Source: a virus
IMG/VR virus record: IMGVR_UViG_3300025121_000776
Location: 122,856 to 186,855 of that record
DNA length: 64,000 nt
Direction: 5' to 3' (one strand)
Each line of letters starts with the position of its first letter. Position 1 is the stretch's first letter. The notes beneath the pieces are model-generated. The model saw nothing but the letters and a program-made list of their open reading frames with translations, ran no database searches and was not told the origin of the DNA. This document shows, one piece after another, positions 2 to 62,328 of the stretch. Made by a program: the position numbers and the translations under genes.

Positions 2-1003
2 GCTATTGCTGATTTTCCCCCAAAAGAAATTAACATAAGTGGAGGAGACCCATTAACTCTTCCAGCTGACCTTCATATTGAAATTTTAAGGATTTTAAAA
101 CAGTCAGAAATAGTCTGCAAAATTATTGTTAATCCAAAATCCATTAAAAACCCATTATCTGCAGCTTTTGAAATTGTTAAAATGTATGATTGGGCTGGAA
201 TTTCTATTAATACCCAAAAAGAATTACAAATCTTTGAAGATATCGCAGAAACTAAAGAATATGAAAATTACACCGTCATAACAAATTTTAACATTCAAAA
301 TCTTTATCAATTTGAAGAAATTGAAGCGTTTGTTAAAAAATATGATAAAATGTGGACAATTCAATTTACAGTTTATCAAGACAAAGATAATCCACTTGCT
401 TTATACCATCCAGATAATCAAATTGCTTTTGAATTATTACAACAAAAGGTTAATACAAGTTCAGCAAAAATAGTTCTATCAGACAATATAAGAAATGATA
501 TGCCTTGCGGTGCTGGATTTAGCTCTGTAGGCATCACATATGATGGTTATGTTATTCCATGTTTAAGTATGAGAAGTTGGAGGGATATTCAAAATTTATG
601 TGAAAAAGAAATATATCAAAATATTTTAAAAACTCCTTTTGAGGAAATTTGGCAAACATCTTTTATTAATGAAAGATTTTGTAAATTTGAATGTTGCAAA
701 GACATATGTCTCAATAAAACTCTCGAAATAAAAAGTTTTGAAAGAAAAGTATTTGAGATAACTCCAAAGTCTGAAGAAGAAAAAAAAGATTGGGAAAAAA
801 ACATTAATGAATTTTTAAAAAAAGTTAAAAAGGAAAATCCTCCATTTGATGCAGGGCAAGTTGTTATGTATGGGGTTATTTCTCCAAGAAATTTTCCAGG
901 TGGTGGCGGAGTTGTTATGTATGGGGTCATTTCTCCAAGAAACTACCCTCCCGATGACGACAATGGCGGCGGAATTGTTTTAATGTATGGTGTATTTAGG
1001 TAA
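2..1003 (+). CDS. Radical SAM/SPASM protein with repetitive MYGV tail (5' partial)
   Basis: The frame is open from base 2, so the N-terminus with the CxxxCxxC cluster site lies outside the window. What remains has the radical SAM motif ISGGDP near the start and a SPASM-like cysteine region (CGAGFSS...VIPC, then C-x3-CC-x3-C) that would bind further Fe-S clusters. The last ~50 residues are odd: VVMYGVISPRN occurs twice, then a third shorter copy ending MYGVFR, separated by Gly- and Asp-rich linkers. SPASM enzymes often modify ribosomal peptides, and this tail resembles tandem core peptides fused to the enzyme; that is inference. A strong terminator follows. Confidence 0.8.
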   Translation, partial: AIADFPPKEINISGGDPLTLPADLHIEILRILKQSEIVCKIIVNPKSIKNPLSAAFEIVKMYDWAGISINTQKELQIFEDIAETKEYENYTVITNFNIQNLYQFEEIEAFVKKYDKMWTIQFTVYQDKDNPLALYHPDNQIAFELLQQKVNTSSAKIVLSDNIRNDMPCGAGFSSVGITYDGYVIPCLSMRSWRDIQNLCEKEIYQNILKTPFEEIWQTSFINERFCKFECCKDICLNKTLEIKSFERKVFEITPKSEEEKKDWEKNINEFLKKVKKENPPFDAGQVVMYGVISPRNFPGGGGVVMYGVISPRNYPPDDDNGGGIVLMYGVFR

Positions 1004-1033
1004 TCTCTTTTCTTAATTGTTATATTTGTTTCT

Positions 1034-1062
1034 AAAAAATCCTCCAGTTGGAGGATTTTTTC
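1034..1062 (+). terminator. Rho-independent terminator after radical SAM gene
   Basis: Perfect inverted repeat AATCCTCCA/TGGAGGATT with a tiny loop, preceded by A-run and followed by a T-run. Confidence 0.85.
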
Positions 1063-1090
1063 TCTATTTATTGTATATGCATATACTGCT

Positions 1091-1255
1091 ATGGAAAATA
1101 AAATAGATAGAAAAACATGTGAAAGTTACTTGCAAAACATTAGAAATGGAAATAATTTCTATAACAAAGAAACAATAGATGATATGATTAAGTGTTACAT
1201 TGAAACCGAGGAATATGAGAAATGTAATGAACTAATAAAGATAAAAGAAAAATAG
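1091..1255 (+). CDS. Small hypothetical protein (54 aa)
   Basis: ATG-started ORF rich in Lys, Glu and Asn with three Cys (MENKIDRKTCESYLQN...). It follows the terminator of the radical SAM gene and is followed after 2 nt by another short ORF, so the two may be co-transcribed. No family recognised. Confidence 0.5.
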   Translation: MENKIDRKTCESYLQNIRNGNNFYNKETIDDMIKCYIETEEYEKCNELIKIKEK

Positions 1256-1257
1256 CT

Positions 1258-1347
1258 ATGGAATATAAAAAAACTATTCGAAAATATATAAAAGAAGCTA
1301 TTGACGATTTACTGCCAGGTGAACTGACCCACTCACAACTTTATTGA
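1258..1347 (+). pseudogene. Gene truncated by element remnant (29 codons left)
   Basis: The start reads MEYKKTIRKYIKEAIDDLL, the same IRKxI(x)E-type segment found in several other proteins of this window, so this is probably a genuine N-terminus. The frame runs into the putative insertion-sequence end at about 1319 and stops at once, which suggests the rest of the gene was lost when that element inserted. Confidence 0.4.
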
Positions 1348-1540
1348 TGAATGGGCTTCTTTGACGTTTCTCAGACTCGTCTTATGACCGATGCCTCACC
1401 GCCTTTTTGTTTATCCTGCGAAGAATGTCCCTTATCCTCCACAGCAATGCTTTTTTGTTTTTTAGATTTTATAGCAAACAACAATTCGTTTGCCAACCAC
1501 AATATCTCAAAGAACTTTAAATTAAATATATTAAAATTTT
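1318..1540 (-). mobile_element. Possible IS200/IS605-type (TnpB) right-end remnant
   Basis: On the minus strand an open frame without a usable start ends ...KGGEASVIRRV at 1371, in the style of TnpB C-termini. It is followed by GAAGCCCATTCA, a 12-nt loop and TGAGTGGGTCAGTTCAC, an 8-bp hairpin with one G-T pair plus a conserved-looking tail as at the right end (omega-RNA 3' end) of such elements. Base composition is more GC-rich than its neighbours. No catalytic part of a transposase or TnpB is left. Identification is from memory of the family and is tentative. Confidence 0.35.
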
Positions 1541-1613
1541 ATAAAAATATAAACACTTTTGTGAAACTATTTTAAAATAATTTCGTGTATTTGTAAAAGT
1601 AATGGCAACTTAT

Positions 1614-1648
1614 CCAAGCCACACTTTGTGATGACTTGGTTTTTTTTG
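1614..1648 (+). terminator. Terminator-like hairpin
   Basis: CCAAG...CTTGG stem with imperfect inner pairing followed by a run of nine T. Confidence 0.55.
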
Positions 1649-6579: not shown

Positions 6580-6692
6580 CGGGCACAGATAACAACAGTT
6601 TAAAACAAATTTAGATATGGAAAAAGAAACTAAAAAAATAGCAGAAAACATTGATAATGGCACTGAAAAATTATTGTTATCTGATGTTATCG
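6574..6692 (+). repeat. attC-like hairpin site P1
   Basis: Read on the + strand: core GCATAAC (6574-6580), 5 nt, arm CAGATAACAA, loop, arm TTGTTATCTG (perfect 10-bp complement, 6674-6683), 2 nt, core GTTATCG (6686-6692). Same 5/2 asymmetry and orientation relative to genes as the ten sites at 56.7-61.0 kb. The following ORF starts in the loop (6617) and reads out through the second core. Confidence 0.6.
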
Positions 6693-6784
6693 GTAGTAAT
6701 TGGAACACTACTGATTATGTAAATCAAAAGGTAAAAAATATCATGTGGAATACTGATAGAAAAATTAAGAATTATTACCGATAA
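6617..6784 (+). CDS. Small hypothetical protein starting inside hairpin site (55 aa)
   Basis: MEKETKKIAENIDNGTEKLLLSDVIGSNW...; the hairpin's right arm and second core encode LLLSDVIG. No family recognised. Ends about 100 nt before the kinase gene. Confidence 0.5.
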   Translation: MEKETKKIAENIDNGTEKLLLSDVIGSNWNTTDYVNQKVKNIMWNTDRKIKNYYR

Positions 6785-6891
6785 CTATTATATATCAGCA
6801 ATAATACCTATATTATAAAACATTCAGAGTCAACGCATAAGCATTGTGTTTTAAAGTGAATTTTTTCATTATATTTATTAAAAATTAGATA

Positions 6892-54797: not shown

Positions 54798-56207
54798 TTA
54801 TTTTTCAAACCATTTATAATTGTCAACTACTTCTATTATCCAATCACCATTACCTTCAAGTTCTTTGGCCTTAACTTCATCAGTAGTTACAACAGTTTCC
54901 CCAACTAACCCAGGTTTAGGAGTACACACAAAAGTTTTTGAGTTGACATTTTCTAATTCAGCAATACATTTATCAAGATATTCTTGGCCAGAGGGATTTA
55001 ATCCTGTTTTCAATTTTCTAAGTTTCTCTGATAAAGTAAGTTTATTAAGATTATCGATAATTATATAATCTGGAAATTCTTCGGTTGAGTTGTTTAGTTC
55101 AGTAATACATTTGTCAAGATAATCTTGATTTGCGGCTGGTCTGCCAGATTTCAATTGCTCAAATATTTCAGATAAATTAAATTTTGAAGGTGAATTCATT
55201 ATTTCTCTGTATCTTTCAGCTCTTTGTTGCCCAATGGATTTTTTGCTTGGAAATTTACCAATCTGTGTTAAATAATTGCCAGATAATTTAAAATCATTTG
55301 CTTGGCTCCATTCAGTAGTAACAATAATTTTTCCATCTGTACCAGTACTTGTTAAAACATAACATTCATCAGCTTCTAATGGGCGCAATGTTCCTTCATC
55401 ACAAACAGGTTCTAGTTCTTGGAACTCACACCATCTTCCGTGTCCTTTGGGAATTTTTGGGAAATTACATACAATAACATCATGAATTTTATCAGTAAAC
55501 CATATCATATAACTATTAGTTGGTTTATTGAAGGCTATTACTTTTCCCTCTTTATTTAAAGCTGGTGGATAATCTCCTCCTATACATTTCACCATTGAAT
55601 CGGTTTCGAACACCTGTTCAATTTGGCAAAAGTCTTCAACGCAAACACTATCTATATCGTATACTGTAGTATAATCGACATCCATTTCAGCATTTGGGTC
55701 TGACGGGCTTGATACTGGGACATGCAAATCGTACCTAACCTTGCTTTTTGTAAATTTAACTGCTTTAACAAGGCAATGCTCAATTTTATTCCCATTAAAG
55801 AAATTTAAATTTACCATTTCATCAATTGCATATCTGGAAGGATAAAGCGTATGAAGCTTTTTTGGAATTCCGCCCATATAATTGGTACATGACCAATTGA
55901 GAGTGTTATCTAATTTAGAATCTTCAACAACTTCTTCGTTGTAAATTGCAAATCTAATATGCCCTTCAAAGAGGCTTGTTTTGGAAATATACAAATGAGT
56001 AAATTTTCCATACGTATCTTCAAGTTTTTTAAATCCTTCGAGAGAAATGATGCTTAAATCTAAACTTCTGTAAGGAGAATTTTCTTTGGTAATTCTACCT
56101 TCTTTGTCAATAGAAACAGGACACCAGTTTACATACTCTACTTTAACTCCGTTTTCTACAAATTTTTGAATTTGTTCTTCAATTTGTTTTTTTATTGGTT
56201 TTTTCAT
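54798..56207 (-). CDS. Large hypothetical protein (469 aa)
   Basis: ATG 56207 (MKKPIKKQIEEQIQKF) preferred over the TTG at 56234. N-terminal ~350 residues beta-rich with conserved-looking Cys/Trp; C-terminal two copies of a helical unit ending YLDKCI(T/A)EL(N/E)N. No family recognised. Own host-type promoter at 56290. Confidence 0.65.
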   Translation of the reverse strand: MKKPIKKQIEEQIQKFVENGVKVEYVNWCPVSIDKEGRITKENSPYRSLDLSIISLEGFKKLEDTYGKFTHLYISKTSLFEGHIRFAIYNEEVVEDSKLDNTLNWSCTNYMGGIPKKLHTLYPSRYAIDEMVNLNFFNGNKIEHCLVKAVKFTKSKVRYDLHVPVSSPSDPNAEMDVDYTTVYDIDSVCVEDFCQIEQVFETDSMVKCIGGDYPPALNKEGKVIAFNKPTNSYMIWFTDKIHDVIVCNFPKIPKGHGRWCEFQELEPVCDEGTLRPLEADECYVLTSTGTDGKIIVTTEWSQANDFKLSGNYLTQIGKFPSKKSIGQQRAERYREIMNSPSKFNLSEIFEQLKSGRPAANQDYLDKCITELNNSTEEFPDYIIIDNLNKLTLSEKLRKLKTGLNPSGQEYLDKCIAELENVNSKTFVCTPKPGLVGETVVTTDEVKAKELEGNGDWIIEVVDNYKWFEK

Positions 56208-57192: not shown

Positions 57193-57270
57193 TTATACGA
57201 AATTCTCGCCCAAATGTTTTAAATAGTTCAATTTTTGTTCACAAATTCCGTAGCAATTGGTCTTTTTCAT
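57193..57270 (-). CDS. Very short ORF (25 aa)
   Basis: MKKTNCYGICEQKLNYLKHLGENFV; its stop region CGTATAACCAATAAA doubles as promoter/leader of the next gene and equals the leader used in the + array. Confidence 0.35.
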   Translation of the reverse strand: MKKTNCYGICEQKLNYLKHLGENFV

Positions 57271-57549
57271 GATAAAACTATTTAATTATCAATTGTTTAA
57301 AAACACTTGTTGATATATAGGAGTTATGTGCCATTTTGCTGTCATTCAAGCCCTTTAACAACTCCACATGCACCCGTGCATATGTAATTTCGGGCTTTCA
57401 TTCCTTAAACGCAAAACGTGCCCCTCGCTCAAAAATCCCAACACACCACATAACATGGGCTTATGGCTATATTGTCTGTGTTTCATCTTTAGTTTCATTG
57501 GTTAATAATAAAAAAGAAAAGCCAACCCTCGTCAGCTTTTCAAGCTGTT
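57271..57549. other. Gene-free hairpin-rich stretch
   Basis: Bounded on + by GTTATGTG (57324) and CACATAAC (57447-57454). Inside, AAGCCC/GGGCTT and GCAC/GTGC arms and several imperfect stems; more GC-rich than its neighbours. No ORF. It has the place of a cassette without a gene. Confidence 0.4.
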
Positions 57550-58025
57550 TTATTTTACTTCTGACCATATATTCATGGCTACATAAGGAGTTCCTCTGTA
57601 TAATACAGTTATAAACTCTGATTTATCCCATGTGCTAACACAACTGAAATATTCTAACATATATGGCTCTGATATTATTTCTACTATTTCACCAGTTTTT
57701 CCGCTAAATCCTGCTAAATTTGATTTTTCGCCTGTTAAAAGATTTTTTTGTTGTGAGTTATCGCATAATATAACTTTTTTCCCAATTATACTATTTCTTC
57801 TATCTCCATATTTAGGCACAAAACATTGAGGAAATAATACTTCTAATACTTTTTTAGCTTCCGTAGAAGATTCTGATGCTAAAATTACTTTTTCTCTTAA
57901 AACTTCTAATTTTTCCATTTTTTTAGTTTTTAATTTATTTTTAAAAATCCACCTTATTTTTCTTTTTTTACTCAGTTTTTCAATCAATATTTCGTTAATA
58001 CAGCCATAAGCCCCGTTCGTTAGCC
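57448..58025 (-). repeat. attC-like site S2 enclosing a whole gene
   Basis: + view: core ACATAAC, 2 nt, 17-nt arm 57457-57473 (GGGCTTATGGCT...), ~520-nt loop, complementary arm 57997-58013 (16 of 17 match, the other a wobble), 5 nt CGTTC, core GTTAGCC. The loop carries the 57550 gene. Confidence 0.6.
57550..57918 (-). CDS. Hypothetical protein inside site S2 (122 aa)
   Basis: ATG 57918 (MEKLEVLREKVILASESSTEAKKVLEVLFPQCFVPKYGDRRN...). An open frame continues upstream across the site but lacks ATG. Alpha-beta; TGxxG segments (SGKTGEIVEI). Unknown. Confidence 0.6.
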   Translation of the reverse strand: MEKLEVLREKVILASESSTEAKKVLEVLFPQCFVPKYGDRRNSIIGKKVILCDNSQQKNLLTGEKSNLAGFSGKTGEIVEIISEPYMLEYFSCVSTWDKSEFITVLYRGTPYVAMNIWSEVK

Positions 58026-58229
58026 ACAATTAAAAGAGATTGCAGCTTCCATTCTATTGTATAAGTCTTCGCTAATCACAGGGTCATCCCAAGCACCAGC
58101 AGTAATGCTAAAAATCTCTTTTAACAGTTCGCTGTGCTGGCTAACAACAGATAAACGCAACTTTAATTTTTCGTTTTCTGCTTTTAATTTAGCTATTTCG
58201 TCTTGTAATTCTTCTTCGTATCCAAACAT
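58020..58229 (-). CDS. Coiled-coil protein starting inside S3 (69 aa)
   Basis: MFGYEEELQDEIAKLKAENEKLKLRL is a clear coiled coil; the following VVSQHSELL crosses the right arm and core of S3. Its TAA stop lies in the S2 core GGCTAAC. Confidence 0.55.
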   Translation of the reverse strand: MFGYEEELQDEIAKLKAENEKLKLRLSVVSQHSELLKEIFSITAGAWDDPVISEDLYNRMEAAISFNCG

Positions 58230-58278
58230 AATTTTGTTATTTAAAAATTAAAACTTCGTTTATCTGCAACCGTTATAC
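58139..58278 (-). repeat. attC-like hairpin site S3
   Basis: + view: GGCTAAC, AA, CAGATAAACG (58148-58157), ~99-nt loop, CGTTTATCTG (58257-58266, perfect 10 bp), CAACC, GTTATAC. Confidence 0.65.
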
Positions 58279-58283
58279 ACAAT

Positions 58284-58505
58284 TTAATTTTTAGGAAGTT
58301 TGTATTCAACAATCATCCCACCATTTTCAGTGTGTGTTACTTTGGTTTCTATATCAGGATGGTGTGGGCATTGAAGTGGTTCTTCCAATCCACGTTCTTG
58401 TTTTTTGTGCCATCTAATAGATTCTGCTCGTGCATCATCAATTGTTGAATACAAACCGTGTTTAACAAGCGATTTTGCGTAATTTTCTACTTTTTCGTTA
58501 TTCAT
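58284..58505 (-). CDS. Small hypothetical protein (73 aa)
   Basis: MNNEKVENYAKSLVKHGLYSTIDDARAESIRWHKKQERGLEEPLQCPHHPDIE...; the start resembles a short helical fold, with CPHH as possible metal site. Cassette gene between S4 and S3. Confidence 0.6.
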   Translation of the reverse strand: MNNEKVENYAKSLVKHGLYSTIDDARAESIRWHKKQERGLEEPLQCPHHPDIETKVTHTENGGMIVEYKLPKN

Positions 58506-58538: not shown

Positions 58539-58624
58539 GTATAACAGCAAATATAAGAAATAAATTTTAAATTATCTAATTTTTTATAGGTAAAATTTAC
58601 TTCTCATATTTGCAAACGTTATAA
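58539..58624 (-). repeat. attC-like hairpin site S4
   Basis: + view: GTATAAC, AG, 22-nt arm from 58548 (CAAATATAAG...), 21-nt loop, 22-nt arm to 58613 (20 of 22 pair), CAAAC, GTTATAA. Confidence 0.7.
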
Positions 58625-58639
58625 GTAATAAAACAAAAA

Positions 58640-58801
58640 TTATGATTGTTTATTTTCTTCTCTTTTCAATTCATCAGAAATCATAGTATTGATACATTCA
58701 CCAATCCATTTAATATTATCATCACCTATTTGCACTCTGTTTTTCAAATCATTTAAGATTTCTTCTTTTCTTTTTTCTAATTCTTGTTTTGTTGTTTTCA
58801 T
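58640..58801 (-). CDS. Small hypothetical protein (53 aa)
   Basis: MKTTKQELEKRKEEILNDLKNRVQIGDDNIKWIGECINTMISDEL...; helical. Cassette gene between S5 and S4; shorter than usual ORF cut-offs. Confidence 0.55.
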   Translation of the reverse strand: MKTTKQELEKRKEEILNDLKNRVQIGDDNIKWIGECINTMISDELKREENKQS

Positions 58802-58842
58802 AATTTCATTTATTTAATTTGTATAATTTTTGTTTTACATAC

Positions 58843-58896
58843 TTATAACAACAAATAAAACACATTAAAACGATGTTTTATTTGCAGCCGTTAGGC
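58843..58896 (-). repeat. attC-like hairpin site S5 (best example)
   Basis: + view: TTATAAC, AA, CAAATAAAACA, loop CATTAAAACGA, TGTTTTATTTG (perfect 11 bp), CAGCC, GTTAGGC. 54 bp in all. Confidence 0.75.
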
Positions 58897-58906
58897 ATAA
58901 TAAAAA

Positions 58907-59083
58907 TTATTGCCCACGCACAATTTTACGCTCATCTATTTCAGCAAAATCAGTTTCCGTATAACATGACCTGCCAATAAACCATTTTTTGTTTTCATAT
59001 TCTGCAACTGTCCATTTTCCTGGTTCTTTTGCCCATGTTATTGCAAATGTTTTTACCCAATAAAATCCGTTTTTCCTTTTCAT
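58907..59083 (-). CDS. Small hypothetical protein (58 aa)
   Basis: MKRKNGFYWVKTFAITWAKEPGKWTVAEYENKKWFIGRSCYTETDFAEIDERKIVRGQ; a pattern common in small phage proteins (WVxxxxxWxxAxYxxxxWxxxG). Cassette gene between S6 and S5. Confidence 0.65.
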   Translation of the reverse strand: MKRKNGFYWVKTFAITWAKEPGKWTVAEYENKKWFIGRSCYTETDFAEIDERKIVRGQ

Positions 59084-59102
59084 AAAAATAATTTTTACAG
59101 AT

Positions 59103-59220
59103 GCCTAACATGCAATATAAAACATACCTGTCGTGCATCTTTGATTAATACTATGTTTATTAATATCGTCATTCTAATTTAGTTCTGTGTTGGCACGTTT
59201 CATACACGCAACCGTTATAA
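59103..59220 (-). repeat. attC-like hairpin site S6
   Basis: + view: GCCTAAC, AT, arm 59112-59128, ~63-nt loop, arm 59192-59208 (11 of 17 exact, 4 wobble), CAACC, GTTATAA. Shares its last core with S7. Confidence 0.55.
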
Positions 59221-59292
59221 CCAATACCACATACCGAAAGCAATCACCATAATTACAATGATTACAATGATACATATCGCCAACCGTTAGCT
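59215..59292 (-). repeat. attC-like hairpin site S7
   Basis: + view: TTATAAC (overlapping the GTTATAA of S6 by six bases), CA, imperfect arms, CAACC, GTTAGCT. Confidence 0.5.
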
Positions 59293-59339
59293 GCAATTTA
59301 ATTTTAATTTGCCACCGCTCTTTGAATTTTTCAAACCCA

Positions 59340-59753
59340 TTAGAATTTTTTACCTCCATATTTAAATCCTCTTGTTTCATTGTATGCCATTTTTAATTTA
59401 ATATGGTTTTCAATATCAATATTTAATTTACCACATAAATCAAGCAATCTAATTATTGAATCAGCGATTTCATCTTCAAAAGAGTCTTTTATTTTTTCTT
59501 CGAATAACAATTTAAATTTAATATTATCTTTTTCACAACAAGGTATATCAGAATTGACATAATATAAAGTTTCATTTAAAACAGGTGTCAAATCAGCATA
59601 CTTATCTTTCCTAAATGCCTCAAATGCCTCTGATATTTCAGAATGAATTAACGCAATCCTTAAAGGTACATCATTATTGTCAAATCCAGCACTTACAACA
59701 AATTTATTAAATTGTTTACTTAATAAATTCAAACCTTTTACATTGTATTCCAT
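59340..59753 (-). CDS. MazG-like nucleotide pyrophosphohydrolase (137 aa)
   Basis: IALIHSEISEAFEAFRKDKYADL carries the ExxE metal site of the MazG/all-alpha NTP-PPase fold, and SFEDEIADSIIRLLDLCGKLNIDIENHIKLKMAYNETRGFKYGGKKF the second EExxD helix and family C-terminus. Hydrolyses noncanonical or excess NTPs (or ppGpp) in relatives; frequent in phages. Confidence 0.85.
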   Translation of the reverse strand: MEYNVKGLNLLSKQFNKFVVSAGFDNNDVPLRIALIHSEISEAFEAFRKDKYADLTPVLNETLYYVNSDIPCCEKDNIKFKLLFEEKIKDSFEDEIADSIIRLLDLCGKLNIDIENHIKLKMAYNETRGFKYGGKKF

Positions 59754-59764
59754 TTTTTATATTG

Positions 59765-59965
59765 TTAAATTAATACTAAAAATCCACCTAAATTAAACAG
59801 ACCCCACGCACAACCCAACGCACTAATCACACCACAAACCACAGCAATACTACCAAATAATTTATATCGGTTTATCGTTTTATTATCTTTACAAACAACT
59901 CCACACACACGCATTTCTGGTGGTCTAATTATCACTTTACTTTTATCAATTATTGGTTCAATCAT
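59765..59965 (-). CDS. Membrane protein starting right after S8 core (66 aa)
   Basis: ATG 59965 (MIEPIIDKSKVIIRPPEMRVCG) lies 2 nt past the GTTATAA core. An open frame continues into S8 from a TTG but would be encoded by the hairpin. C-terminal hydrophobic hairpin (FGSIAVVCGVISALGCAWGLFNLGGFLVLI). 11 nt before the MazG-like gene. Confidence 0.6.
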   Translation of the reverse strand: MIEPIIDKSKVIIRPPEMRVCGVVCKDNKTINRYKLFGSIAVVCGVISALGCAWGLFNLGGFLVLI

Positions 59966-59967
59966 AT

Positions 59968-60061
59968 TTATAACATCGTGTATATTCAAGTTTGCATCAG
60001 CATTTGTGCATAATTCAAAGTTCCCATAAGCAAACCTGAAATATGCAAGCAACTGTTATTA
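59968..60061 (-). repeat. attC-like hairpin site S8
   Basis: + view: TTATAAC, AT, CGTGTATATTCAAG, ~58-nt loop, CTGAAATATGCAAG (imperfect complement), CAACT, GTTATTA. Confidence 0.5.
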
Positions 60062-60295
60062 AACAATTATTTTGAAAGTTCTTTTATATTTATTGAATTC
60101 AGGTTCATTGCCAAATTTTTCTTCCATTAAATTATTCAATCTAACTGGATTCACGTCATACGTAATTGGTATTAAATTCCATAATTTAGAACATCGTTCT
60201 CTTGTCTGTGTCAATGTTAGTTTATTCTCTTCTAATTCTTTAATGAGAATTGTTTGTTCAATTTCGTATTTTTCTAAATTTGTTTCTGTTTTCAT
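60059..60295 (-). CDS. Hypothetical helical protein (78 aa)
   Basis: MKTETNLEKYEIEQTILIKELEENKLTLTQTRERCSKLWNLIPITYDVNPVRLNNLMEEKFG...; coiled N-terminus. Cassette gene between S9 and S8. Confidence 0.6.
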   Translation of the reverse strand: MKTETNLEKYEIEQTILIKELEENKLTLTQTRERCSKLWNLIPITYDVNPVRLNNLMEEKFGNEPEFNKYKRTFKIIV

Positions 60296-60316
60296 ATTTG
60301 TACTTTTTTAACTAAA

Positions 60317-60386
60317 CCATAATAACAAATATATAACAAAAAAATTGAAATAAAAAAATTTCATAATATATTTGTAACCGTTAGCA
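60317..60386 (-). repeat. attC-like hairpin site S9
   Basis: + view: CCATAAT, AA, CAAATATAT, 31-nt loop, ATATATTTG (perfect 9 bp), TAACC, GTTAGCA. The upstream gene's stop (TGC TAA) is in the core. Confidence 0.65.
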
Positions 60387-60650
60387 ATCAGTTATTGGTT
60401 TTGCTTTTATATTACAGGTTTCATCTAAACAGTGCATTCCCTTAAAATTACAAGAGTCTTGCACTCTGTAAGGACACCCAGCAACCGACACCCCAACGCT
60501 TGGAATTGCTATCGCTACAGGTATAGCAAATAAATTTACTAAGTCCCATCGTAATTTTCCGCATATTTCCCCTGTTAATTTTATGTAATCAAGATTGTCG
60601 TTATCAATTTTTACATCACTTAATAATAAGTGTACTTCTTGTTCTGTCAT
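60381..60650 (-). CDS. Cys-rich hypothetical protein (89 aa)
   Basis: ATG 60650. Hydrophobic centre (LFAIPVAIAIPSVGVSVAG) then CPYRVQDSCNFKGMHCLDETCNIKAKPITDC with five Cys. Unknown. Confidence 0.6.
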   Translation of the reverse strand: MTEQEVHLLLSDVKIDNDNLDYIKLTGEICGKLRWDLVNLFAIPVAIAIPSVGVSVAGCPYRVQDSCNFKGMHCLDETCNIKAKPITDC

Positions 60651-60695
60651 ATTTATCAATTTATTAGTTATTAATCCGTAAAATTCTGCGGCTCG

Positions 60696-60965
60696 TTAGC
60701 GTTCAGTTTGCTTGAAGTCGCTAATATTATCACCATGTCCACATGTACAGCAAATAACCTGTATATCTTTCGTTTTACACTTAGGGCAAACCACAACGCT
60801 AACATCGTGTATAGGTAATAATTTTAAAAAAAGTTCTTCCAATTCAGTAGCAACGCTCGGCGCATCTGCTGCATCGCATTCAACGTCTTTTCTTGGTATC
60901 TTACTTACCACTTTATATATTTGTTCCCAAACCTCGCTTCTTTGCATTTTGTTACTTTGTTCCAT
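60696..60965 (-). CDS. Zinc-ribbon protein starting inside S10 (89 aa)
   Basis: Helical N-terminal half; VVVCPKCKTKDIQVICCTCGHGDNI is a four-Cys zinc ribbon. The start codon is in the loop of S10 and the frame runs out through its GTTAGCG core (minus strand). Stop TAA in CGCTAAC. Confidence 0.6.
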   Translation of the reverse strand: MEQSNKMQRSEVWEQIYKVVSKIPRKDVECDAADAPSVATELEELFLKLLPIHDVSVVVCPKCKTKDIQVICCTCGHGDNISDFKQTER

Positions 60966-61026
60966 TTTATTTAGTTTATCTGTTAATACTTTTTAAAATT
61001 ACATACTATACACAAGTCCATTATAT
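60797..61026 (-). repeat. attC-like site S10 with long loop
   Basis: + view: CGCTAAC, AT, CGTGTATAGGTAAT..., loop, ...AATTTTAAAATTAC-type arm ending CTATACACA, AGTCC, ATTATAT (degenerate core). GTGTATAG pairs perfectly and GTAAT/TTTTAAAAA continue after a 3-nt bulge. Confidence 0.5.
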
Positions 61027-61031
61027 GTAAT

Positions 61032-61250
61032 TTAATTATCCTCCGATTTAACTCTACTACTTATTCCAATATTGTGTCCCGCAATTGGATTCCAACCTAT
61101 TTTAGAATATGAGCCATCGTCTATTTCAACAGTTGCCAAGCCTGTTTCATTATCATATTCTATTACTTTACCTACTACTGTTTCTTTTACATTCACATTT
61201 TTACCAACTAAATTTAGCAAATTCTTTTCTAATTGTACTGTCATTTTCAT
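61032..61250 (-). CDS. Small beta-barrel-like protein (72 aa)
   Basis: MKMTVQLEKNLLNLVGKNVNVKETVVGKVIEYDNETGLATVEIDDGSYSKIGWN...; SH3-like. Shares its 5' leader and first six codons with the 62329 gene. Confidence 0.65.
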   Translation of the reverse strand: MKMTVQLEKNLLNLVGKNVNVKETVVGKVIEYDNETGLATVEIDDGSYSKIGWNPIAGHNIGISSRVKSEDN

Positions 61251-61275
61251 ATTCTAAATTTTAAGGTTTTTTATT

Positions 61276-61497
61276 TCAAATTAATTTGTTTGGTCTTTTT
61301 AATGTAATTTCATTAATAATATTTTTATCAGTTACTTCAATTAACTTATCAAATTCAACATAATCAAAATATGTTGAACCTTTTTCGTGTTCGCAGAAAA
61401 AACAACCGCTACTTGTCCCAAATGTATTCCACTCGTGATAATAATCACCATCACACTTTACAACTAATTTATTCTCAAATTTTCCTATTATTTCCAT
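61276..61497 (-). CDS. Hypothetical protein (73 aa)
   Basis: MEIIGKFENKLVVKCDGDYYHEWNTFGTSSGCFFCEHEKGSTYFDYV...; three Cys and His, possible metal site. Own host-type promoter (61530). Confidence 0.65.
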   Translation of the reverse strand: MEIIGKFENKLVVKCDGDYYHEWNTFGTSSGCFFCEHEKGSTYFDYVEFDKLIEVTDKNIINEITLKRPNKLI

Positions 61498-61529
61498 ATC
61501 AATATTTTTTAGTTTATAATTATTTTATA

Positions 61530-61560
61530 CAAAGATACTAATTTAATTCGATATAATCAA
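61530..61560 (-). promoter_or_regulatory. Consensus Bacteroidota promoter
   Basis: Minus strand TTG, 20 nt, TATCTTTG (61537-61530). Confidence 0.75.
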
Positions 61561-61656
61561 TATTCACAACGCTATTTTTAAAAACTTTTTGCTAGTGTTC
61601 CAATTAAGCACTTGTGTAAGCAATAGTTGTATTTGCAACCGTTATGTTTAATTAGA

Positions 61657-61893
61657 TTATTGTTTTGAATTTTTTATTTCTAAACCGTTTTCTTTAAGAA
61701 TTTTTATAACTTCATACCAATCATATTCCATTGGTGGTGTAAAATTACAATCTATACTTAATTTTCCCACATCAGACATTTTCCCACTTTTTTGTCTTGG
61801 TTCGCAAACAAAAATTTCACCTTCATAATAAAGTTTCAAGTGTGGAAAAATTCTTTCCAAACGTTCTACTAAAATTCTTAATTCACTATCCAT
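61657..61893 (-). CDS. Hypothetical protein (78 aa)
   Basis: MDSELRILVERLERIFPHLKLYYEGEIFVCEPRQKSGKMSDVGKLSIDCNF...; alpha-beta. A half-site CAACC-GTTATGT follows its stop, without a visible partner arm. Confidence 0.6.
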   Translation of the reverse strand: MDSELRILVERLERIFPHLKLYYEGEIFVCEPRQKSGKMSDVGKLSIDCNFTPPMEYDWYEVIKILKENGLEIKNSKQ

Positions 61894-61954
61894 ATATTTT
61901 TATTTTTATTTGTAGAACAATAATTTAACTAAAACGACAATATATTTGCAACCG

Positions 61955-62248
61955 TTAGTACTCATTTAAAGAGCGGATGTACTCGTCTAATTTCTTTTCC
62001 TCTTCAATGTGCTTAGGTATTGCCAACGAAGCACATTTTCCACAGATATAGTAATCTACTTCACAACCACACTCATCATTTGTATATCCTGCCGCATAAC
62101 TACCTTGCTGCGGGTTATCACAACAGTCACAAGTATCATCAAATTCGCACCTCACATAATATTTCTCAATTTCTTCCTGAGTAAATAAAACGGGTGCTAA
62201 CACAGTATTAGCATTATTGCTTGTGGGTTTTTGTACTTTATTTTTCAT
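61955..62248 (-). CDS. Cys-rich protein (97 aa)
   Basis: CEFDDTCDCCDNPQQGSYAAGYTNDECGCEVDYYICGKC has eight or more Cys suited to zinc binding. Stop TAA overlaps a CTAAC core; half-site only. Confidence 0.65.
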   Translation of the reverse strand: MKNKVQKPTSNNANTVLAPVLFTQEEIEKYYVRCEFDDTCDCCDNPQQGSYAAGYTNDECGCEVDYYICGKCASLAIPKHIEEEKKLDEYIRSLNEY

Positions 62249-62328
62249 ATTAAAATTTGTGTTAAGTTAAACTTTTCTGTTTCAAATTAAAGGCAACAAA
62301 TGCCAATACTTCACCGTTATATTTAATT

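Follow-up and report, generated by a model that had tools for sequence, protein, structure and literature searches.

The hairpin site S2 very probably opens, as its first cassette, an integron-like array carried by a phage, and its attC appears to be built inside-out, with the hairpin tip on the side of the R boxes and the gene between the L boxes; this reading includes the steps of integration set out below. S2 lies in the window, a stretch of 64,000 nucleotides forming the end (122,856–186,855) of a 186,855-bp IMG/VR phage contig, in which 57.3–62.3 kb is taken up by a cassette array, i.e. small minus-strand genes between attC-like sites. It is placed first in that array, next to what is left of a recombinase, because its start abuts an attI-like site beside an integrase remnant. 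Cassettes of this “inside-out” kind, with the gene enclosed by the hairpin and not placed next to it, form a recurring class that seems not to have been described before, and S2 is one of them. The cores and arms, the attI-like site, the integrase remnant, the exact boundaries in related phages, the recurrence of the class and the fold of the circular form derive from the sequence itself, and the features of the window on which they bear are as follows.

57193–57270, minus: 5′ integrase remnant MKKTNCYGICEQKLNYLKHLGENFV, followed by a stop (25 codons), from local alignment
57289–57329, plus: attI-like site TCAATTGTTTAAAAACACTTGTTGATATATAGGA|GTTATGT, from motif and BLAST
57323–57454, plus: outer arc of S2, a noncoding hairpin tip closed by the R boxes GTTATGTG/CACATAAC, from its fold
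57324–58019, attC orientation plus, gene on minus: S2 cassette, first of the array, cut G|TT...G|TT, from the R″/57323 pairing and the boundary shared with phage L034
57448–57454, plus: R″ core ACATAAC of S2, read from the sequence
57457–57473, plus: L″ arm GGGCTTATGGCTATATT of S2, 2 nt from R″
57508–57540, minus: terminator-like hairpin and T-run (AAAAGC...GCTTTT) just downstream of the S2 gene, predicted, read from the sequence
57550–57918, minus: S2 cargo gene encoding 122 aa, without a family assignment in database searches
57997–58013, plus: L′ arm AATACAGCCATAAGCCC of S2, then a 5-nt spacer, CGTTC
58019–58025, plus: R′ core GTTAGCC, which closes S2 and opens the next cassette
58020–58272, plus: second cassette (S3), 130-nt attC, ORF 58020–58229 on minus, with a copy in L034
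58273–58618, plus: third cassette, ORF 58284–58505 on minus, 76-nt attC (fold z −6.4)
58619–58890, plus: fourth cassette, small ORF on minus, compact attC of 44 nt whose loop is the common CATTAAAACG
58891–62316, plus: remainder of the array, with further cores, weaker or degenerate attC sites and small minus-strand genes

The two arms of S2 pair over 16 of 17 positions and can fold into a hairpin, with spacers of 2 and 5 nt separating them from R″ and R′ cores that carry AAC and GTT, respectively, and they enclose the minus-strand ORF of 122 aa, all of which bears out the preliminary description. Their score of 14.5 compares with a best value of 7.5 when the right arm was kept fixed and the left 1.5 kb was resampled 1000 times with preservation of dinucleotides. 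The single mismatch, an A on the left and a C on the right at arm position 13, recurs at the identical place in many attC sites of the S2 type, e.g. in GGTGTATATGTA[A]TTTTTT / AAAAAA[C]TACATATACACC, and the 2/5 combination of spacers is the commonest one among such sites. The arrangement is not that of an attC lying beside a gene and ending in an apical loop on the L side, as the S2 gene sits between L″ and L′ with the tip on the R side, and neither does the gene run along the top strand of the attC, being on the minus strand.

The R″ core ACATAAC can pair with its reverse complement, GTTATGT, which stands at 57323, the attI junction, and the cassette therefore spans 57324–58019, so that the unit starting at 57448, as had been proposed before, has to be extended on its left. 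The added tip (132 nt from core to core) differs from the common CATTAAAACG tip, and folded alone as single-stranded DNA it beats its shuffles only modestly (z −2.3, with 4 of 200 equally good). The junction of the circular form, in the order L′ – R′ – tip – R″ – L″, folds into one attC-like hairpin with a z of −5.2 that none of 200 shuffles reached. On this modelled fold, the S2 circle would hold a compact attC, and the form seen in the array would be the same attC split by a gene-carrying loop.

At the right end, the 58019 core is independently shown as a cassette boundary by its alignment with L034, a different phage of other base composition, which has only 58019–58285 in common with the window (98.5%); the ends of the shared segment are the cores GTTAGCC (58019) and GTTATAC (58272). 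Among cassettes common to different contigs, 6 of 10 alignments start at the preceding GTT and end 3–4 nt into the next GTTA, one of them running over 960 nt at 99.9%. The unit is therefore G|TT ... attC G|TT, with the attC at its right end and in plus orientation; the opposite orientation of the array, with the crossover at YAAC cores, is ruled out by these shared ends together with the position of the attI. Mobile units ending at the G|TT of consecutive R′ cores were found for the second cassette of the window and L034, for other ordinary cassettes and for the pair L197/L221. The attC of the third cassette is homologous to 8420–8495 of L011. L034 itself holds a short run of cassettes at about 850–1630 (reverse strand) without an attI-like site, and the left flank of this run, CGGGTATAAACAA|GTTAGCC, is a candidate for a secondary site of insertion.

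The 57 loci surveyed gave 300 distinct core-linked cassettes, 281 of them with an ORF; the longest ORF lies on the strand opposite to the attC orientation in 269 and agrees with that orientation in 12, a bias that sets the phage arrays apart from classical integrons and places the attC, therefore, upstream of its own gene. Forms intermediate between the ordinary and the inside-out arrangement also exist: 84 of 126 cassettes with an attC of 100–160 nt have an ORF that begins in, or extends into, the attC. Within the window, the ORFs 58020–58229 and 61955–62248 begin in the loop of their own attC and exit through L″ and R″, the recombination site thus encoding part of the protein, and many cassettes with an attC of about 120 nt are built likewise. 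The lengths of the attC sites (loci L061–L106 and L107–L190) are discrete, at about 44, 75, 84 and 110–124 nt; in the 44-nt class the loop CATTAAAACG is near-invariant, and the stems vary with their complementarity kept.

The same loop connects the ordinary sites to the inside-out ones, capping the 44-nt attC from the L side and, in the inside-out cassettes, sitting at the R side (GTTATGGCACATTAAAACGATGCCATAAC). The tip GTTANNNCACATTAAAACGATGNNNTAAC was located at 33 distinct sites, and for 28 of them a pair of matching distant arms was recognised at a score of at least 9.5, the maximum in a control with the left arm reversed being 6.5. An ORF, always on the minus strand, is enclosed by 26 of these 28 pairs, with loops of about 200–1280 nt and genes of 45–302 aa, and the circular forms of two such cassettes fold with z values of −9.2 (L068) and −6.3 (L201). 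Tips of other kinds, as in S2, are present in L143 (774-nt attC, 181-aa gene) and L146 (248 nt, 69 aa). A tRNA had been suspected in the inside-out cassette of L131; ARAGORN found none there.

Members of the class recur in different phages. The inside-out cassette of L197 and L221 is shared over 251 nt, from tip core to R′ core, at 93.6% in different surroundings, and that of L205 and L224 is likewise shared, at 85%. The earlier proposal of mobile units bounded by two cores accordingly stands for the class, whose ends fall at GTT cores in different phages, with the amendment that the unit also takes in the tip (57323–57454 in S2). In L201, L219, L229, L230 and L231, which like the other comparison contigs are mostly metagenomic fragments, the same two ends (about 100–140 nt on the left and 65–120 nt on the right, mostly 90–98% identical) surround different genes, so that a constant attC frame can carry different genes. 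The cargoes of L201 and L230 are related glycosyltransferases of the TAGT family (PF20691), and those of the remaining three are a DNA methylase (PF01555), a Mom-type DNA modification protein (PF25680) and one unknown. Judged from these alignments, the frame suggests an exchange of DNA-modification (anti-restriction) genes among phages.

The start of the S2 cassette coincides with an attI-like site. Its consensus, TTTATATATAATA|GTTA, is located upstream of the recombinase start, and the first cassette begins there; the pattern was found at 76 of 78 loci, a few of them doubtful. Most of 76 integrase-bearing loci have the form (T)TTATATATAATA|GTTA, typically 54–76 nt upstream of the start codon of the integrase, and in the window the site is 53 nt from the ATG of the remnant. 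The window region matches the attI of L145, L147, L133, L131 and L129 with BLAST E values of 4e-7 to 2e-5. An attI adjoining a divergent integrase gene is thus represented in the window by an attI and a remnant, the latter aligning with the intact integrases of L087 and L089 (MNKTNYYEICNQKLKYLNY...) at a BLOSUM62 local score of 64, as against 43 for the best of 500 shuffled peptides. No match to PF00589 was obtained anywhere in the whole 186,855-bp contig.

An intact tyrosine recombinase (266–286 aa), one at the array, is present in 6 of 22 sampled array-bearing records, mostly clearly at the left end of the array and divergent from it. A profile scan with the alignment of these six proteins yielded at least 239 IMG/VR stretches with the recombinase, as well as four clear Bacteroidota MAG contigs at 51–59% identity. 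The catalytic residues R, K, H, R, H and Y are conserved, as in XerA/XerC-like recombinases (NF040815, PDB 4a8e), which are the best family match; the XerA-type model gives about 174–195 bits, below its NCBIfam cut-off of 220, and the phage enzymes differ from this family in adjoining attI-like sites and attC arrays and not dif. The integron integrase model TIGR02249 gives about 151–158 bits (cut-off 265). The phage recombinase has 33 residues where IntI4 (2a3v) has 81, and the IntI-specific region, about 48 residues between the boxes, is therefore missing from it; an IntI integrase with that region was not found, the window holding a 5′ remnant only.

The gene enclosed by S2 has no relative in PHROG, Pfam, IMG/VR, GTDB genomes or phage records, and a single-sequence structure model of the 122-aa protein, with a mean pLDDT of 34, is too poor for use. 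The motif GGTGGATTTTTA upstream of the gene was considered as a promoter family and set aside, there being only 2 exact copies in the genome, one of them inside another ORF. Searches of IMG/VR with the arm patterns returned chance matches only, lacking partner arms, and the DNA of S2 has no relative among plasmids and phage records except for a 34-nt match in the attC of the neighbouring cassette. No relatives were found for the gene on the left flank (54798–56207). An empty S2 site, or a second copy of the unit elsewhere, had been put forward as the check on its mobility; the searched collections contained neither. Since its arms and gene have no relative there, mobility would be ascribed to S2 itself through its class.

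S2 could in principle have arisen in other ways. The preliminary description had considered a cassette inserted into the loop of an attC, and in this case a degenerate cassette would have had an ordinary attC of 74 nt, whose loop took up a further cassette or gene, perhaps between the two copies of GTTAATA (57501 and 57994), the only candidate flanking repeat. The removal of the stretch between these repeats would indeed give a site of about 74 nt, near the common 75–76 nt class, and the different genes within the one frame of L201 and its four relatives would agree with such an origin, so that the idea retains its value for the class, where the same ends hold different genes. For S2 in its nested form, however, it is unlikely: 69% of shuffles would have a 7-mer common to both flanks by chance alone, there is no further attC pair inside the S2 loop, the gene in L068 has its stop directly against the arm, and the hairpin tip is on the other side, where an ordinary attC has no need of one.

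Quite improbable is a chimeric origin, in which two neighbouring attC sites of one sequence family would each have lost their inner half, so that one arm from each now stands on either side of the gene. Arm families such as ATGATAAACAA do recur within an array and yield false long pairs in the scan, but the S2 arm family was not found elsewhere in the sampled arrays or in IMG/VR, two matching deletions would be required, and the paired tip, the match between R″ and the attI core and the recurrence of the arrangement would be left unexplained. Finally, the AT-richness of the region and the separate terminator-like hairpin after the gene could be taken to mean that S2 is no recombination site at all, with a terminator pair or a chance palindrome surrounding an ordinary phage gene. 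This is hardly credible given the margin of the arm score over its shuffles and the linkage of R″ to the 57323 core, and it is contradicted by the exact cassette boundary at 58019 and by the attI-like site with its integrase remnant.

In the preferred model of an inside-out cassette, the free S2 circle would fold into the compact attC described above, and the phage tyrosine recombinase would open the circle by a cut at G|TT in R′ and insert it at attI. As the R′ cut adjoins the tip, the resulting linear order would be tip–R″–L″–gene–L′–R′, which is the order seen in the array. We infer that the recombinase acts on the inside-out and other array sites; because it lacks the IntI-specific region, its use of the folded bottom strand is assumed by analogy with classical integrons. 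For the latter, it has been reported that long hairpin loops cut recombination by up to 4 logs under replicative conditions, with no such penalty when the site is delivered single-stranded (PMC8946536). By analogy, a loop of more than 500 nt would be a far greater obstacle to excision from the array than to integration, and easy entry with rare exit would be expected of inside-out cassettes. The integrase in the window is a remnant, so the S2 cassette can now move only with an integrase supplied in trans. As to how a frame might be refilled, homologous recombination across the shared ends would be the simplest idea.

The phage arrays share with classical, IntI-based integrons the R″/L″/L′/R′ boxes with AAC and GTT cores, the cutting of cassettes at G|TT, the attI beside a divergent tyrosine recombinase gene and the arrays of single-gene cassettes. 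They differ, besides gene orientation and the recombinase, in that the spacers of their attC sites are usually 2/5, the A·C mismatch replaces clear extrahelical bases and some sites enclose a gene. According to the accessible text of Qi et al. 2023 (PMC9892861), attC clusters without an integrase (CALINs) occur in virulent phages, IntI1 recombined 5 of 6 phage attC sites tested, and 3 complete integrons and one In0, all from temperate phages, were found in addition to 17 CALINs. In contrast to the CALINs as described in that text, which makes no mention of the inside-out form, intact integrases of another type adjoin the arrays here in many large phage contigs, and inside-out cassettes are present. 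No report of such cassettes or of this type of phage recombinase was found in the literature searched, most subscription journals and preprints lying outside its scope. A related array is also known from the huge phage LR756500.1 (462 kb), where homologous cassettes and attC sites follow one another in a different order; this phage differs from the window in that no integrase was found in it and S2 is absent.

A wider reading, which we regard as possible but hold with less than even confidence, is that phages of Bacteroidota-type hosts carry a separate integron lineage with a Xer-like integrase, in which inside-out cassettes would serve as one-way, refillable capture frames, their compact attC being present in the circle alone, and cargoes including DNA-modification and anti-restriction genes would be swapped within constant attC frames. 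To our knowledge, integron biology has yet to settle how new genes gain an attC and turn into cassettes. Constant frames with exchanged genes, if true, would be a route for new cassettes, and the formation of cassettes becomes open to direct test in that one pair of attC ends surrounds the two related glycosyltransferases, the methylase, the Mom-type modifier and the unknown gene. The inside-out topology predicts unequal rates of integration and excision from a simple change in the polarity of the hairpin. It also points to a widespread system by which phages exchange small genes, including some with an anti-restriction role, and which standard integron searches would probably miss because its integrase falls below the IntI model and its attC sites can be hundreds of bases long.

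Outside the main array, and far from it, the window contains an isolated core-linked attC at 6580–6785 (minus), 109 nt long, with the arms CAGATAACAATAATTT / AAACTGTTGTTATCTG and the cores CGATAAC and GTTATGC, which is possibly a cassette at a secondary site. A gene for a MazG-like pyrophosphatase (59340–59753, minus) lies in or near the array, and related DNA is present in the huge phages LR756500 and LR756501 and in Cellulophaga phage phi14:2.
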